From positions 1 to 39,838 of the forward strand of contig JASJAZ010000039.1 of the NCBI GenBank assembly GCA_030066785.1: DNA of 39,838 nucleotides, given 5' to 3'. Origin of the DNA: Desulfobacterales bacterium (GTDB taxonomy: Bacteria; Desulfobacterota; Desulfobacteria; Desulfobacterales; JASJAZ01). This document shows positions 4,198-11,962 of the stretch, in pieces. Each line of letters starts with the position of its first letter. Position 1 is the stretch's first letter. The translations under genes and the position numbers were made by a program. A model generated the notes under the pieces. That model had not been told where the DNA came from, ran no database searches, and worked only from the letters and a program-made list of their open reading frames with translations.

Positions 4198-4504
4198 AAA
4201 TCGAAAGATCCGGCTCACCCCTTCTTCCAAAGCCCTAGTATCCAGATCGTGTCATCGTCCCCAAATGCTTACAGATATAATCTTGCTGACAAATACAGCC
4301 CGTAAAAAATGGGCGTGTGAACAAGCTAACCATATGTTTTGTAACAGTTTTTCATTTTGTTTGAATATGCCCTTGACCTTTTTCTAAGGTTTGCATTCAT
4401 CTCAGGGGTGTGATAATCTCCGTCCAATTTTGACCCTATGTCATGACTTAAAGCATCCCTAAGCGGTTGAATTGAAGCATTTAAAGAAAGAGAAAGTAAA
4501 TCGT
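4198..4504. other. Intergenic region between kdsB and the response regulator
   Basis: About 300 bases without a credible gene. It holds a small hairpin (GCCC near 4300 with GGGC near 4312, A-rich loop) without a T run, so it is a poor terminator. A GATAAT sequence near 4412 with TTGCAT about 15 bases upstream is a weak promoter candidate for the next gene. Nothing else stood out. Confidence 0.4.
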
Positions 4505-5668
4505 ATGAGCACTCCAGAAACCAATGAAACTCAGCAACCCACTGAACGCATTTTACTTGTTGACGACAATCCCACAAACTTGCAGGTACTTTACCAGACG
4601 CTGGATGGTCGCGGCTACCATTTGCTGGTGGCTAAAAATGGCCAAGCGGCCCTGGCTGTTGCCCGCAAAGCCGATCCGCATTTGATTCTTTTGGATATTA
4701 TGATGCCGGATATAGACGGCTACGAGGTGTGTCGCCAGCTTAAAGCTGATGCCGCCACCCAAGAAATTCCCATTATTTTTCTATCAGCTCTCAGTGATAC
4801 CGAAGATAAAGTGAAAGGTCTAGATTTGGGAGCGGTTGATTACATTTCAAAACCATTTCAACCCGACGAAGTCATCGCGCGCGTCAATACCCATCTGACC
4901 ATTGACCGGCTGCGCCGTGAAGTACAAACGCAAAAAGATGCCCTTGAAAACGAACTTGAAACCGTAGCCCAATTGCAGCTCACATTGCTGCCTAGAAAGC
5001 TTCCTGACATTAACAATTTAGCGCTGGGTGTCTATTACGCCACCAGTCGCTATGCCGGCGGCGATTACTACGATATTATCCAATTGCCGGACAATCGATG
5101 GGGATTTCTGATCGCCGATGCAGAGGGCCACAGCGCCCGTGCCGCTGTCAGCATGGCTATGACCTGCACACTGTTTCGATCTTTGCCTGGGCCCTCCGAT
5201 GATCCCGCGCAAGTGCTTCAATACGTGAATAAACATCTATGCGAGGTTATCGGCAACAGCTTTGTGACCGCATTGTTTGCGTTGTACGATCCTGCTACGC
5301 GCAAAGTCCAAATGGCTCGTGGTGGACACCCGCCGCCGATTTTGTATCGGCCGACTACCGGCGAGGCTAAGCCGGTTGAAAGTAAAACGGTGTTTCCCAT
5401 GGGAATCGATCAATATGATCAGATTCCGGTAACTGAATTTGAATTAGCCGCCGGAGACCGTCTTTTATTTTACACCGATGGCCTGACCGAACAGCATAAT
5501 ACCAATGGTGAATTATACGGTGAAAACCGTCTGTGTGAAAAATTGGCCAGCCTTGACAGTGACGATCCCCAGGTCATTGCTGAAGCCATTAAGGACGATG
5601 TGGCCCGTTTTTCAGCCGGTCTGCCTGTGGAAGATGACCAGCTCATTTTTATGGGTGTGGCCCGCTGA
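4505..5668 (+). CDS. Response regulator with PP2C-type (RsbU/SpoIIE) serine phosphatase output domain
   Basis: 387-residue cytoplasmic signalling protein. Residues 15-130 are a receiver domain: acidic pair D20/D21 in LLVDDNP, phospho-acceptor D64 in LLDIMMPD, and K116 in YISKPF. A charged helix (about 135-165, ending QLTLLPRKLP) links it to a PP2C/SpoIIE phosphatase domain with GGDYYD (185-190), IADAEGHS (203-210), GHPPPIL and FYTDGLTE, ending in DDQLIFMGV. Such proteins usually dephosphorylate an anti-sigma-factor antagonist after phosphorylation by a histidine kinase. No kinase, STAS or anti-sigma partner is encoded in the window. I use the ATG at 4505; an in-frame TTG at 4472 would add 11 residues. 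The loop usually read D(V/A)xGHG is DAEGHS here, keeping the metal-binding D and G. Confidence 0.93.
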   Translation: MSTPETNETQQPTERILLVDDNPTNLQVLYQTLDGRGYHLLVAKNGQAALAVARKADPHLILLDIMMPDIDGYEVCRQLKADAATQEIPIIFLSALSDTEDKVKGLDLGAVDYISKPFQPDEVIARVNTHLTIDRLRREVQTQKDALENELETVAQLQLTLLPRKLPDINNLALGVYYATSRYAGGDYYDIIQLPDNRWGFLIADAEGHSARAAVSMAMTCTLFRSLPGPSDDPAQVLQYVNKHLCEVIGNSFVTALFALYDPATRKVQMARGGHPPPILYRPTTGEAKPVESKTVFPMGIDQYDQIPVTEFELAAGDRLLFYTDGLTEQHNTNGELYGENRLCEKLASLDSDDPQVIAEAIKDDVARFSAGLPVEDDQLIFMGVAR

Positions 5669-5714
5669 TTCTATCGGTGGCAGGGTAAACCAAAAAATTT
5701 CAAGGGATTATCGC

Positions 5715-6503
5715 ATGTATCAGACCAAACGGCACCCACTTCTGTGGTTAGTGGTAGTGATTCTGTTTTGCATTTCGCCGCCAGCGGTAATGGCACAGGA
5801 TACAAAAAATTTGACCATAGTCGCAGGCGCCGGACCCGGCTTTGCGCCTGATTATGAAGGTTCGGATAGTTACGAGTTGGTACCAATCGTTTTTGCGCGC
5901 GCCGACTGGAGCAGCGGGCGCTATATTCATTTTCAAGATCTGACCTTAAGCGCCAATGCTATTGCCAGTAAAACGTGGGAAATCGGCCCTGTGGTCCGCT
6001 ACCGCCCCAAACGAGATGACGTGCACAACAGCAAGGTCGATGATCTGGATGAGGTCGATGCCGCAGTAGAAATCGGCGGTTTTGTCGGTTTTAACATCAA
6101 AGAGTGGCGCTTTAGCTTAGAGGCCGTCCAGGATGTTGCCGACGGTCATGATGGGGCGCTAGTCGCTTTTAGTATAGACTATGTATTAGATTTTTCGGAA
6201 AAGATAGATTTTTTCGTATCTGCTTTTACAACCTATGCTGATGATGACTATATGCAAAGCTATTTTGAAGTCGACCGCCGCGATGCGGCCCGAAGCGGAC
6301 TTGATGAATATAATGCCGACGCAGACTTAAAAGATGTTGGCGCCAGTTGGATGGTTCGCTACGACATTTCAGATAAATGGGATTTTACGGGCACGCTCAA
6401 ATACACACGGCTATTTAACGATGCCAAAAGCACGCCCATTGTTGATGATGAGGGCGACCCGAATCAGTATTCCGGCGGTATTGCCGTTGTGTATTCTTTT
6501 TAA
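5715..6503 (+). CDS. MipA/OmpV family outer-membrane protein
   Basis: 262-residue predicted beta-barrel. An N-terminal signal peptide (MYQTKRHPLLWLVVVILFCI, cleavage likely after VMA at about residue 26) leads into GAGPGFAPDYEGSDSYELVPI, the typical MipA opening strand. Alternating polar/hydrophobic strands follow and the protein ends IAVVYSF with a terminal phenylalanine, as outer-membrane proteins require. E. coli MipA is a scaffolding partner of a lytic transglycosylase and a polymerase; other members are porin-like. The start at 5715 has AAGGGAT upstream. It lies 46 bases after the PP2C regulator and may share its transcript. Confidence 0.88.
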   Translation: MYQTKRHPLLWLVVVILFCISPPAVMAQDTKNLTIVAGAGPGFAPDYEGSDSYELVPIVFARADWSSGRYIHFQDLTLSANAIASKTWEIGPVVRYRPKRDDVHNSKVDDLDEVDAAVEIGGFVGFNIKEWRFSLEAVQDVADGHDGALVAFSIDYVLDFSEKIDFFVSAFTTYADDDYMQSYFEVDRRDAARSGLDEYNADADLKDVGASWMVRYDISDKWDFTGTLKYTRLFNDAKSTPIVDDEGDPNQYSGGIAVVYSF

Positions 6504-6730: not shown

Positions 6731-7567
6731 CTATTCATTAATTTTTTTCTGCATGTTGGAGACATAGGCATCTCGAATCGCCTGGTAGGGATCCACGGCC
6801 ATTTCTTTTAAACTTTCATATTCACCGATTCGAAAGGTAAACTCATTGACCTTTTCGTAAGCAGGCACGCCGTATTTGATGTACCAATCCTGGTTCCATA
6901 ATATCCAGGTCATTGGATCCAGCGCCATATCACCCACCAGTCCAAACGTATCACGGAAAGTGGAGGGTCCAAAAATCGGCCATGTGAGGTAAAATCCATT
7001 GCCGATTCCCCAATAACCCAACGTCTGCGCCGTCGATTCAGCCGGTGGATTGAGGCCGGGATTATCCTTGACAATATTAAACAGCCCAGCCGCCCCAAAG
7101 GTACTATTAACACAAAAACGCCAAAATTCCTGCGCACCACGATCGATTTTGCCCTGCAAGACACTGTTTACGAACCGAATCGGCATCCGGATATTGTAAA
7201 AGAAATTGCGAACACCGGTTCTGAAAAATTGGGGGGTGATGGCCTTATATCCCTGTGCGGCAGGTTTCAGTAACCAGAAATACAACTTATCATTGAAATG
7301 AAACCAGATAACATTAAAGCCATATAGCGGGTCGGCAACCGTGATCCCCGGCTCATCCTCGATTTCATCCAAAAAATCCATATCATCATCGGCATAGGGA
7401 TCATCTTCTTCGGCTGCTTTCTCAGAAGCCGCCAGAAAAATCGAGGCGGTTTCGGTATCAGCAGGGATTAACGGTGATGATTGTGCCCGTGCAGCAGGGG
7501 GTAAATATAAAGTTTGAAGAATAAACAGAGCCGCCAGCAAGCAAATCCCAAAAGTGCCACGCTTCAT
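6731..7567 (-). CDS. mlaA: MlaA (VacJ)-family phospholipid-transport protein
   Basis: 278-residue VacJ-family protein. In E. coli MlaA is an outer-membrane lipoprotein that takes misplaced phospholipid from the outer leaflet. Family features are DPLYGFNVIWFHFNDKLYFWLLKPAAQGYK, FFYNIRMPIRFVNSVLQGK, GAQEFWRFCVNSTFGAAGLF and TLGYWGIGNGFYLTWPIFGPSTFRD, all at expected spacing. The N-terminus is a classic cleavable signal peptide ending PPAARA followed by QSSP; there is no lipobox cysteine, the only nearby cysteine being C9 inside the hydrophobic core. An acidic linker (EEDDPYADDDMDFLDE) precedes the domain. Start at 7567 has AAGGATTG upstream. It follows mlaD after 306 bases and is closed by the terminator at 6627-6658. 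Confidence 0.93.
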   Translation of the reverse strand: MKRGTFGICLLAALFILQTLYLPPAARAQSSPLIPADTETASIFLAASEKAAEEDDPYADDDMDFLDEIEDEPGITVADPLYGFNVIWFHFNDKLYFWLLKPAAQGYKAITPQFFRTGVRNFFYNIRMPIRFVNSVLQGKIDRGAQEFWRFCVNSTFGAAGLFNIVKDNPGLNPPAESTAQTLGYWGIGNGFYLTWPIFGPSTFRDTFGLVGDMALDPMTWILWNQDWYIKYGVPAYEKVNEFTFRIGEYESLKEMAVDPYQAIRDAYVSNMQKKINE

Positions 7568-7873
7568 AATATCAATCCTTATCCATTTATCGGTGTTAAA
7601 AGCATTAATAGAATTATCAACTTCTGAGGACCGCACCATTTCTAAAACCGATTATATGTCAGAGATAATCACATCAATCAATTTAGATATAGGTTCGCTA
7701 TTATATTCGCGTTTAAAGCTGCCTGCTTTTTACTTCCAGTTAACCAAACTCCAGCACGTGATCTAAATATTTTATTTGAAGGCAACCGCCAGTTGAGCTG
7801 TCATTTGCTTGCCAAGGCTGCGATTGCCCCACTACTATAAATCAACTTTTAAACGTTGAGAGATTCTGCAGGG
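7568..7873. other. Gap between mlaD and mlaA
   Basis: 306 bases with no open frame of convincing quality on either strand. It is too short for an intact mlaC. A separate mlaA promoter could lie here, but I cannot name clear hexamers. No hairpin with a T tail was seen after mlaD, so read-through into mlaA is possible. Confidence 0.4.
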
Positions 7874-8326
7874 CTATTTTTTCACATCGCCAAAGGCATA
7901 TTTGCTGATCAGATCCCCCAAATCGATGGGCGATTCGGTTTCGGTAATGGTGTCGCCGCTTTTCAGCAAATCACCCCCGCCACCGGCATCAATGCCGACA
8001 TATTTATCGCCGATCAGACCCTCGGTTTTAATGGAAGCAATGGCATCATCGAAGATTTGAATGTCTCTTTTGATTTTTAACTCGACAATCGCGACCTGAG
8101 CATCCTGATCCATTTTAAAACCGGCCACCGAGCCGATTTCCAAGCCCAGCATATTAACCGGATTGCCGACCCGTAAACCGGTGACGGTATTGAACCGGGC
8201 AAACAACGAATAGGTATTATCTCCCAAGAACCCGACGTTTCCAAGTTTTACCGTCATATACCCGATACAAAACATCCCAATGACCACGAAAATGCCGACC
8301 ACTGTTTCTTTAGAATACTTTTTCAT
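7874..8326 (-). CDS. mlaD: MlaD-like MCE-domain lipid-binding protein
   Basis: 150-residue inner-membrane-anchored protein with one N-terminal transmembrane helix (residues 8-27, TVVGIFVVIGMFCIGYMTVK) and one MCE domain (about 40-115: YSLFARFNTVTGLRVGNPVNMLGLEIGSV, then the central hydrophobic pore loop region GLIGDKYVGIDAGG). MlaD hexamers form the periplasmic lipid channel over the MlaE/MlaF transporter. The gene starts 5 bases after the mlaF stop. Its GGAGG ribosome site overlaps the last mlaF codons, so translation is probably coupled. At 150 residues it is a short single-MCE form ending in a charged tail. Confidence 0.95.
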   Translation of the reverse strand: MKKYSKETVVGIFVVIGMFCIGYMTVKLGNVGFLGDNTYSLFARFNTVTGLRVGNPVNMLGLEIGSVAGFKMDQDAQVAIVELKIKRDIQIFDDAIASIKTEGLIGDKYVGIDAGGGGDLLKSGDTITETESPIDLGDLISKYAFGDVKK

Positions 8327-8331
8327 ATAAC

Positions 8332-9585
8332 TTAACCTCCGGTTTTACATTCAAAGCGAGCAATGGGTTTTTGATTAAATCTGGCAAATTCCATGACGGA
8401 CTCAATCTCAATTTGCGGTTTGCCCTGAGCCAGTCCGGCAGAAATATTAACTTCAATGCAGCCTTCCGAGGGCTTTTCACCCGTAATCAGCGACCCGAGA
8501 TCCGGCATTCCGTGTTCCTGGAAATCCTTGGTAAAATCTTCCATAATGCGCTTGGCTTCCTCAAGATCCGAGTACGGCAGCACCGTTGCATATTCATTGA
8601 TGGTCTGCCGGGAGGAAAATCCCCCGACAGCGCCAAAATGTTTGTTGATATAAGAACCCAGGGATCGAATGATCTGCTGGGCGACATCATGACCCAAAGC
8701 ATCACTGATGCCGTCCATGCCTTCCAACACAAAAACAGCCACAGCATAGGAGGCATCTGGTTGGCGTTTGCTCAGATCGCTTTGATAGCGAACTTTAAAA
8801 TGGCGCCTGGAATACAGCCCGGTCAATTCTTCCCCCAGACTTTCAAGACTGGTAATCAGTTCATCGCGAAACGGATGATCAAGGGCTTCAAAGGCCTCCG
8901 GGTCGCCTTGAAATACAATTTTGCGATCATAAAGGGCCAGTATACGGTTGGATATGAAATACACATCCGGAATTTCGTGGCTGATCATAAGGGCGGTAAA
9001 CCCGAAGCGCTTCTGGTATTCGGCCACCATACTCAAAATGGCATTTTTACGGATGGGGTCCTGCCCGGTAGTGGGCTCATCAAACAGCACGATATTCGGA
9101 TCAGTCACCAGGGCGCGTGCCAGCGCGGTGCGCTTTTGCATGCCGCCCGAAATCTCCGACGGGTATTTATCAAACACTTCGGTCAGTTCGGTTTGTTCGA
9201 TGCGGGCCATGGCCTTTTCTTTAATCTCTTGTTTTTTTAATTTCGTCGTGTACTTCAAGGGCATGGCTACATTTTCAAAGACTGTCATCGAATCAAACAG
9301 CGCATTGTTCTGGAACATGTAGCTGATCTGTCCAATATATTCATTCCATTCCGCTTTACTCATCTGATCAATGGCTTTTCCGCGGTATAGAATTTGGCCT
9401 TCATCGGGCTTAAGCATACCAATGATATGCTTGAGCGTCACACTCTTACCCGTTCCGGATAGACCGATAAGGGTGGTAACTTCGCCCTCATAAATGGAGA
9501 AATCGATGCGATTCAATATGTTGCGAGTGCCGAAGGTTTTGCTCACGCCCTTAAATTCAATTAACGGTTCCCTCTGGGTATCCAT
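8332..9585 (-). CDS. mlaF: MlaF-type ABC ATPase fused to a degenerate GGDEF-like domain
   Basis: 417 residues, much longer than the usual 260-270. Residues 1-250 are a complete MlaF ATPase: Walker A GLSGTGKS (41-48), Q-loop near YMFQN, signature ISGGMQ (145-150), Walker B IVLFDE (165-170) and H-loop H203. Residues 255-417 resemble a GGDEF fold: LTGLYSRRHF start, LEGMDGISDALGHDVAQQII (288-307) where diguanylate cyclases have DLDGFKxINDxxGHxxGDxxL, VLPYSDLEEAKRIM, and the terminal VNISAGLA strand. At the GG(D/E)EF site the sequence is QTINEY, so cyclase activity is very unlikely. ATG at 9585 follows AGGAA; mlaE ends 8 bases upstream. In E. coli the MlaF tail binds MlaB; no mlaB exists here, so the extra domain may take over regulation. 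Confidence 0.93.
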   Translation of the reverse strand: MDTQREPLIEFKGVSKTFGTRNILNRIDFSIYEGEVTTLIGLSGTGKSVTLKHIIGMLKPDEGQILYRGKAIDQMSKAEWNEYIGQISYMFQNNALFDSMTVFENVAMPLKYTTKLKKQEIKEKAMARIEQTELTEVFDKYPSEISGGMQKRTALARALVTDPNIVLFDEPTTGQDPIRKNAILSMVAEYQKRFGFTALMISHEIPDVYFISNRILALYDRKIVFQGDPEAFEALDHPFRDELITSLESLGEELTGLYSRRHFKVRYQSDLSKRQPDASYAVAVFVLEGMDGISDALGHDVAQQIIRSLGSYINKHFGAVGGFSSRQTINEYATVLPYSDLEEAKRIMEDFTKDFQEHGMPDLGSLITGEKPSEGCIEVNISAGLAQGKPQIEIESVMEFARFNQKPIARFECKTGG

Positions 9586-9593
9586 GGCATTTC

Positions 9594-10442
9594 CTAAATG
9601 ATAAAAGAAGTTACAATGTAATCTGAGACCAGGATCATCACACACGAAAAGACAACTGCTGATGTAGTGGACAGGCTGACGCTTTTGGCGCCATAGCTGT
9701 CAGTGCGCATGTGGGTGAAAAAACCCTGAAAACAGCAGATAGTGACAACCAGGAGGCCGAAGACAATGGATTTGTAATAGCCCCCCATAATGTCATCCAT
9801 CTGGGTGCTGGACACGACCCGGAAAAAGTAAGTACCGGAATTGACACCCAGCAGCAGGCATCCGCTGACCCAGGCGCCGAGAATGCCGATCAGGTTAAAA
9901 AAGGTAGTTAAAATCGGAAAGCTGATAATTGCTGCCGCGATACGCGGGCTGATCAGATAGCCCAGCGGATCGATGCGCATGGTGGAAAGCGCGTCGACCT
10001 GTTCTGAAATTCGCTGGATGCCGATTTCGGCGGTCATGGCCGAACCTGCCCGGGCCGTGATCATGATAGCAGTCAACACCGGTCCTAACTCCCGGATCAA
10101 TGTCAGGGCAATGGCCGTGCCCAGGACGCCGACGGACCCGAATTTAACCAGAACGAAATACAGCTGCAGTCCCAGCACCATTCCGGTGAAAAAACCCACC
10201 AGCATTACAATCTGAGCGGATTTGGCGCCGATAAAATACAACTGCTGAATAATTTCCGGGATGGCTTTAATACGGAAAATCATAAAAAAAGACCGGAAGA
10301 AAAAAATCGCCATGGCTCCCAGATTGTTGTTCAGGCGGAGGGTCCTGCTGCCAAACAGATTAAAAAATGAGGTTATCTTGCCAACGGACGGTTCGGTTGC
10401 ACTAATTTCTGCTGTATCCTGCGCGCTGCTGTCGCTAGCCAT
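9594..10442 (-). CDS. mlaE: MlaE family ABC-transporter permease
   Basis: 282-residue inner-membrane permease of the phospholipid-transport ABC complex. About six hydrophobic stretches are visible, starting after an amphipathic N-terminus: QIVMLVGFFTGMVLGLQLYF, TAIALTLIRELGPVLTAIMI, IISFPILTTFFNLIGILGAW and the last VVFSCVMILVSDYIVTSFII. The MlaE signature RELGPVLTAIMITARAGSAMTAEIGIQRISEQVDAL is intact (residues about 117-151). The first 20 residues are polar and unusually S/A/T-rich. AAAGGA precedes the ATG at 10442. It is the first gene of the mlaEFD transcript. Confidence 0.96.
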   Translation of the reverse strand: MASDSSAQDTAEISATEPSVGKITSFFNLFGSRTLRLNNNLGAMAIFFFRSFFMIFRIKAIPEIIQQLYFIGAKSAQIVMLVGFFTGMVLGLQLYFVLVKFGSVGVLGTAIALTLIRELGPVLTAIMITARAGSAMTAEIGIQRISEQVDALSTMRIDPLGYLISPRIAAAIISFPILTTFFNLIGILGAWVSGCLLLGVNSGTYFFRVVSSTQMDDIMGGYYKSIVFGLLVVTICCFQGFFTHMRTDSYGAKSVSLSTTSAVVFSCVMILVSDYIVTSFII

Positions 10443-10836: not shown

Positions 10837-11589
10837 TTAATTGCGAGACGGTTTTGAATAAATAAACAATAGCTTGGTGGGACCGATTTTGATGATATCG
10901 GATTCCTTCAGTAGAACCGTTTTTTTGAGAGGGGTATCATTAACAACCGGCTTGGCCATCCCGCTTTGATACGTTATAAAGAAACCGTCAGCCCGTTTGC
11001 TGATGACAGCCGCTTTTTTTCCGACAAAAATACCCTTGATACGGACGTCGCAAGATTTGTCCTTCCCGATCCACATTTCTTTTCTGCCCAGCTCGACATA
11101 TCCCTCGCCGCCGTGGATGAAATACAGCATGGCCGTTTTTTGTTTCTCGGTTTTGCGGGTGGCTACTTCCAAAAAGCTTTTGGAACGCATCTCTCTGTAG
11201 TGTTGGGTATCAATCACCATGGTCTGGTCACCGCCGGCCGTTGCGGGTGCCATCGGTTTGGTCAAATCGACTTGCTGATTATCAGCAGCTTCGGCCGCTA
11301 AACCGGTTTTATAAATCAGTGTATGCTCCCCGATTGAAATGATGTCACCCGGTTTTAACCACTGCGCGGTTATAAATTGTTGATTCAAAAATGTTCCATT
11401 ACGGCTGCGAAGATCGGATAATAAATACGAATTGTTCACCGGCTCGATTTTAGCGTGATGACCGGAGACCGCCGGATCATTGATAACCACATCGTTATCG
11501 TTGCTTCGACCGATGGATATCAATTTCCCCAGCTCTAAAGGAAACACCCCAATAAGATCTTTATTCCGCTTTAATTCCAGACTCGGCAT
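10837..11589 (-). CDS. Protein with two FHA domains
   Basis: About 250 residues. FHA1 (residues 1-100) has the phosphothreonine-binding residues: GRSNDNDVVI (27-36), SGHHAKI (42-48) and RSRNGTFLN (61-69), followed by a linker rich in A, D and T. The second domain (about 155-250) keeps the outline WIGKDKSCDVRI, ISKRADGFFITY and VVNDTPL but lacks the S-x-x-H motif, so it may not bind phosphopeptide. A threonine in the linker (DQTMVID) resembles motifs that are phosphorylated in FHA-partner systems; that is a guess. I start at MPSLELKR (11589) because FHA proteins of this type begin there; an ATG 21 bases upstream is possible. No kinase gene is nearby. Confidence 0.85.
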   Translation of the reverse strand: MPSLELKRNKDLIGVFPLELGKLISIGRSNDNDVVINDPAVSGHHAKIEPVNNSYLLSDLRSRNGTFLNQQFITAQWLKPGDIISIGEHTLIYKTGLAAEAADNQQVDLTKPMAPATAGGDQTMVIDTQHYREMRSKSFLEVATRKTEKQKTAMLYFIHGGEGYVELGRKEMWIGKDKSCDVRIKGIFVGKKAAVISKRADGFFITYQSGMAKPVVNDTPLKKTVLLKESDIIKIGPTKLLFIYSKPSRN

Positions 11590-11962
11590 GGTAATTACAG
11601 ATACTCCCATCAGATTGCGTATACATATTTATACCCGATAAAACCCCCTTTGCGCAAGCTGTTCGAACAAAATTCAACTTTGTTTCATTATTGAATCGGG
11701 TAAACTACACTTGGATATCATGATGAGGGTTCTTTTTGCTTGTCAAAGAACCGGATCTGACTTATGCTGACAAAAAAATTATTCGGTTTTTCTGATTGGC
11801 ATGTAACCTCGGATTTTCACACCTTCAATTCTGTTACTCAAATTAAAAATTAACTAAGCTGTTTTGCATTAACGTCTTCAATTTTGGCATGGTTCCATCA
11901 TCAATAGAGCTGTGCCCATAGCGTGGTTGACTTAATATCAATTAAAATCGCCGGGAGGAAGG
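11590..11962. other. Divergent intergenic region between FHA gene and pgk
   Basis: 373 bases carrying promoters for both directions. It contains a clean dyad at 11728-11752. I could not assign convincing -35/-10 pairs for pgk. Confidence 0.4.
11728..11752. promoter_or_regulatory. Inverted repeat upstream of pgk
   Basis: GGTTCTTT and AAAGAACC are perfect 8-base complements separated by nine bases. No T run follows on the plus strand. It lies about 210 bases before pgk in a divergent region, so an operator or a leader hairpin are both possible. Confidence 0.35.

Follow-up and report, generated by a model that had tools for sequence, protein, structure and literature searches.

A GGDEF-fold domain lacking catalytic residues, fused to the MlaF ATPase of Desulfobacterota

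What is a GGDEF-fold domain doing at the end of a transporter ATPase? The question is raised by the window analysed here, a stretch of 39,838 nucleotides from a Desulfobacterales bacterium (contig JASJAZ010000039.1), in which a single open frame joins an MlaF ATPase to such a domain. The encoded protein resembles the ABC ATPase of the E. coli phospholipid MCE transporter MlaFEDB, including the signature Met found in MCE ATPases (PMC7367683). However, E. coli MlaF carries a C-terminal extension of only ~25 residues and relies on a separate STAS partner, MlaB, whereas the window protein has ~165 extra residues with a GGDEF fold, and no MlaB in its operon. In our reading, the gene product probably serves as the ATPase subunit of an MlaE-F-D-A phospholipid transporter and ends in a catalytically dead GGDEF fold that would be regulatory or dimer-stabilising.

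The fusion gene and its operon

The features on which the argument relies are the following:

9594-10442, minus strand: mlaE permease, 282 aa, without STAS domain (Pfam MlaE, E 7e-69)
8332-9585, minus strand: mlaF::GGDEF fusion gene, 417 aa, ATG at 9585
8851-9585, minus strand: MlaF ABC ATPase part, residues 1-245 (Pfam ABC_tran at 24-173; E. coli MlaF the best solved structural match)
8347-8829, minus strand: GGDEF-fold domain, residues 253-413, catalytically dead (Pfam GGDEF and predicted fold)
8620-8631, minus strand: AVGG, residues 319-322, at the position of the RxxD I-site, within the near-invariant block INKHFGAVGGFS (alignment)
8590-8604, minus strand: TINEY, residues 328-332, at the GG(D/E)EF position (alignment with PleD)
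7874-8326, minus strand: mlaD, short MCE protein, 150 aa (NCBIfam OM_asym_MlaD, 137 bits, above cut-off)
6731-7639, minus strand: mlaA lipoprotein (Pfam MlaA, E 2e-64)

No internal stop interrupts the fusion frame, whose ATG comes just after the mlaE stop at 9594-9596. The operon runs, on the minus strand, from mlaE through mlaF::GGDEF and mlaD to mlaA further on, with the fusion gene adjoining mlaE and mlaD as expected of an MlaF; the mlaC genes of the source genome are located outside it. Some neighbouring genes deserve mention in their own right: a protein with two FHA domains, a possible phospho-signalling partner, is encoded upstream of mlaE on the same strand (10837-11610), and a response regulator fused to a SpoIIE-type phosphatase (4472-5668) is overlapped by a MipA-family gene that lies downstream of it (5505-6503).

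The ATPase part is a complete MlaF, as the first-pass annotation had proposed. Indeed, Walker A (GLSGTGKS), the signature (SGGMQ), Walker B (IVLFDEP) and the H-loop (SHE) are all present, these columns are mostly invariant in an alignment of 22 relatives, and Pfam ABC_tran matches with E 5e-35. MlaF structures top the PDB lists both by sequence and by fold match, the best match of the full-length model being E. coli MlaF, which the ABC part of the model matches (TM 0.84 over the target; 34-36% identity over ~240 residues in the fold match). MlaF is also the best NCBIfam model (189.7 bits, which does not reach the curated cut-off of 441 bits). The full-length model further aligned over ~360 columns with MetN, the ATPase of the MetNI methionine importer, including its C-terminal domain. 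That domain of MetN is ACT-like and binds methionine; it is not a GGDEF domain.

The assignment of the remaining residues to the GGDEF fold, made earlier by eye, is likewise confirmed by profile search and by predicted structure. Pfam GGDEF matches residues 253-358 (E 5.9e-9; 36.3 bits against a cut-off of 23.8) and gives 38.9 bits with the isolated tail, and a phmmer search of the tail alone against the PDB returned diguanylate cyclases first (DgcR 9.8e-7, SadC 5e-6). The AlphaFold model of the tail (pLDDT 77.5, pTM 0.73) shows strands and helices in the order typical of GGDEF domains, and all 50 PDB fold matches listed for it are GGDEF structures. ABC_tran and GGDEF were both matched in 22 of 22 aligned members, and PleD RYGGEEF falls in register with R-Q-T-I-N-E-Y of the window protein, in agreement with the previous placement of QTINEY at the GG(D/E)EF position. 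The full-length AlphaFold model (pTM 0.55, linker pLDDT < 50) leaves the inter-domain placement uncertain and was rejected as a guide to it, inter-domain confidence being too low.

Two types of tail across the phylum

A scan of species genomes yielded 24 loci with the tail, 44-78% identical, nearly all labelled as Desulfobacterota or Deltaproteobacteria groups and one only as 'uncultured bacterium'. Profile searches covered 116 genomes of the same order and 247 of the phylum; once the loci had been read, the Desulfobacterota set amounted to 85 distinct MlaF::GGDEF proteins. Within the order, no fewer than 44 of these 116 genomes carry the fusion, and at least 20 more do so elsewhere in the phylum; these counts are lower bounds, only part of the candidate loci having been fetched, and leave out the mixed profile A4, which matches ordinary GGDEF proteins. 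A sequencing error or chance read-through was considered and rejected on the grounds that the same fusion recurs in these 85 proteins and in three MAG chromosome records (CP070746, CP070694, CP070697). The in-frame continuation noted at the outset thus stands.

Two types can be told apart, the window type with 37 proteins and the sister type with 48. The split is defined by a profile score of 140 bits, and in the ATPase tree a few phylum members close to this border fall on the window side. The source genome holds both, since a second mlaE-mlaF::GGDEF-mlaD set, of sister type, is found on its contig C91. Genes of the two types also occur a few kb apart within one locus elsewhere (L012:5257-10752, and contig C15 of genome G246).

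To place the catalytic residues, a PleD reference checked against its PDB sequence was added to the alignment of the 85 tails. Asp327, which binds metal, and the GG pair are kept in none of the 85, and Asp344, which binds guanine as Asn335 does, in one. Accordingly, the tail is non-catalytic, as the first-pass annotation had supposed, and the candidate role of an active diguanylate cyclase was rejected: TINEY occupies the GG(D/E)EF position of the window protein, and the catalytic residues are missing from all 85. Gln replaces Asp344 in 35/37 window-type and 37/48 sister-type tails and Arg stands at 366 in 37/37 and 46/48, shared features that fit a single origin of both types. Cys413, near the C terminus of the tail (window 8347-8349), is kept in all window-type and most sister-type members.

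Beyond these common traits, each type has motifs of its own. Sister-type proteins have a total length of ~405 residues and share the motif RYG[ML]NK[IV]. The 37 window-type proteins have the near-invariant blocks GLYSxRxFKVRYQ and INKHFGAVGGFSxR, and INKHFGAVGGFS constitutes a new, nearly invariant block in this type; its conservation suggests a protein contact or the binding of another ligand. A site for some other small ligand, such as GTP or another nucleotide, could have been remodelled from KHFGAVGGFS and nearby basic residues. Such a putative site is consistent with how strongly the glycine-rich block, FKVRYQ, Arg366 and a basic residue at 442 (33/37) are conserved, and it has a precedent in the degenerate, GTP-binding GGDEF domain of Caulobacter CC3396 (PMC7288161). 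However, nearly all window-type tails lack Asp344, Asn335, Asp327 and Arg446, and the block might just as well serve as a surface for protein contact, so that we regard ligand binding of this kind as unlikely.

The tail evolves faster than the ATPase, with ~1.8 times its divergence. Within the window type, tails are on average 50% identical and ATPase parts 72%; the corresponding means for the sister type are 33% and 64%. Nevertheless, tail dN/dS is ~0.05-0.3 for the least saturated pairs (an order of magnitude only, as several pairs have dS > 1.5 and are saturated), and the tail is conserved under purifying selection. In a quick tree of the ATPase part, with many weak nodes, tail-less MlaFs are scattered among the sister type, several of them nested between fused proteins, with close relatives from a single family among the cases (L152 and L154; L119 with L129 and L138). 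This distribution suggests repeated loss of the tail, and thereby that the domain is dispensable in several lineages. One could then regard the tail as a decaying passenger without function, in line with its faster evolution and with the nested tail-less proteins. This is highly improbable, however, given its retention in 85 distinct proteins across the phylum, a dN/dS well below 1 and the appearance of new invariant motifs.

The c-di-GMP inhibitory site

In PleD, the I-site that binds c-di-GMP is formed by R359, D362, R390 and R313 (PMC7288161). The two tail types were compared at these positions:

Window type: RxxD is intact in 0/37 tails (mostly AVGG instead), and position 390 is Asp in 30/37.
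Sister type: RxxD is intact in 32/48 tails and all four I-site residues in 26/48; taken singly, Asp362 is kept in 43/48 (90%), Arg359 in 32/48, Arg313 in 39/48 (81%), and Lys or Arg stands at 390 in 37/48.

Identity with PleD at the four I-site columns, compared with random columns, gave P ~0.002 for the sister type and P 0.49 for the window type (by column resampling, which is not a phylogenetic test). It had been suggested that the added domain could tie phospholipid transport to a nucleotide signal. For the window protein a c-di-GMP link is not supported, because RxxD is lost in all 37 window-type tails, and a direct c-di-GMP role is unlikely; for the sister type, judging from its residues, such a role is plausible.

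As a tentative possibility, the sister-type domain, represented on contig C91, may thus be a c-di-GMP receptor, in which predicted binding at the I-site would crosslink the domains of the MlaF dimer and switch phospholipid transport, the window type being a non-binding descendant. In favour of this, the active site is gone from the sister type as well, the I-site columns stand above random ones in that type and not in the window type, and the source genome encodes 23 GGDEF domains. On the other hand, RxxD is common among GGDEF domains and may simply be inherited, the conserved Asp beside the hairpin could be structural, and RxxD is not intact in 16/48 sister-type tails, including the second copy of the source genome itself (Y for R).

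Taken further, this proposal would give Desulfobacterota Mla phospholipid transporters in which a fused, catalytically dead GGDEF domain of the sister type lets c-di-GMP switch the ATPase directly; the window type would be a derived form, with the same domain rebuilt for another signal or as a lock of the ATPase dimer. We consider this broader scheme rather doubtful; if true, c-di-GMP would be coupled post-translationally to the lipid asymmetry of the outer membrane. Since one type keeps the c-di-GMP site and the other has lost it, the pair can serve as a natural control.

MlaB and the role of the tail

The tail had also been proposed to replace MlaB. The window operon contains no STAS gene, and none was found on the coding strand of the other fused operons that were read. 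These have the order E-F(GGDEF)-D, with mlaC-mlaA usually next, and lack mlaB; STAS genes encoded separately in the source genome do not lie beside Mla genes. We then examined 116 MlaE loci, chosen from the top of the MlaE ranking and not at random, 10 of which were not assignable. The 25 MlaEs that carry a STAS domain or an extended N terminus are all accompanied by a plain MlaF (GGDEF tail in 0/25). Among the 81 loci with a STAS-less MlaE, 48 have a GGDEF tail and 33 a plain MlaF; two of them, L119 (174-residue tail, scored below the profile) and L122 (where the long N terminus is only open frame), were put by hand into the STAS-less tail class. The source genome has five other MlaE genes: three are fused to STAS, two of these being followed by a plain MlaF and one lacking MlaF, one is that of the sister-type set, and one has neither STAS nor tail.

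These data would be compatible with the GGDEF domain being a structural stand-in for MlaB, needed for the assembly of MlaF with MlaE: mlaB is missing from the fused operons, the tail and a STAS-MlaE never occur together, and the genome's STAS genes sit away from its Mla genes. However, plain MlaFs accompany 33 STAS-less MlaEs, and the plain STAS-less operons read in detail (mlaE-F-D-C, usually with mlaA) also lack mlaB. Moreover, Veillonella MlaEFD works without MlaB (PMC10665443). The exclusion between tail and STAS amounts essentially to one contrast, because the STAS-linked MlaFs form one separate clade in the ATPase-part tree (the same quick tree with many weak nodes) and tail-less MlaF operons of the same clade are also without mlaB; this weakens it as strong evidence of replacement. 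In sum, the proposal is partly supported: the absence of mlaB from fused operons stands, the tail is compatible with MlaB replacement yet is not needed wherever MlaB is absent, and a strict structural requirement seems to us rather unlikely.

We return to the reading of the tail as a regulatory or dimer-stabilising module. In E. coli, the C-terminal 'handshake' extension of MlaF acts in dimerisation (PMC7367683), and the long extension of mycobacterial MceG, likewise an MCE ATPase with a functional C-terminal extension, makes contact with a partner subunit, and growth on cholesterol requires it (PMC9882608). The MceG extension nevertheless consists of ~120 residues of helices and flexible linkers, whereas the window tail has a GGDEF fold by profile and by predicted structure. 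MetN offers another parallel, an ABC ATPase with a dimeric, ligand-sensing C-terminal domain (PMC7367683), and PelD shows that a GGDEF fold without catalytic residues can serve as a regulator, binding c-di-GMP through its GGDEF domain (PMC7288161); no ABC ATPase fusion of such degenerate receptors was found in the literature searched, and the window type differs from PelD in having no I-site. By analogy with the MlaF handshake and MlaB, MceG and MetN, the two GGDEF domains of an MlaF dimer would form a C-terminal regulatory or dimer-stabilising module; since the domain sits where MlaF and MceG have their extensions, in an expected dimer, it is best explained in this way. On this reading, the ancestral protein would have responded to c-di-GMP, with the sister type as its surviving form, and in the window lineage the c-di-GMP site would have given way to a new conserved surface.

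Both parts of the protein belong to known families. Their combination, its spread and its split into two types appear undescribed, no MlaF::GGDEF or other ABC::GGDEF fusion having been found in the literature searched, with subscription journals mostly outside that scope. In E. coli, active MlaB levels are suspected to regulate Mla post-translationally (PMC7367683); the fusion of a conserved domain of signalling type to the ATPase provides a direct handle by which this level of control can be tested.

Two further loci of the source genome may be recorded. On contig C194 (L050:3281-6075), a STAS-MlaE operon in which no MlaF was found has a PF05635 protein, of the 23S rRNA intervening-sequence type, encoded between mlaE and the MCE gene. 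On contig C58 (L047:4051-7264), a stand-alone mlaC-type gene lies directly downstream of a diguanylate cyclase gene (by eye, its GGEEF and RxxD are intact) and a gene with an HD domain whose sequence resembles that of an HD-GYP protein, so that c-di-GMP and Mla genes are neighbours at a second place in the same genome.
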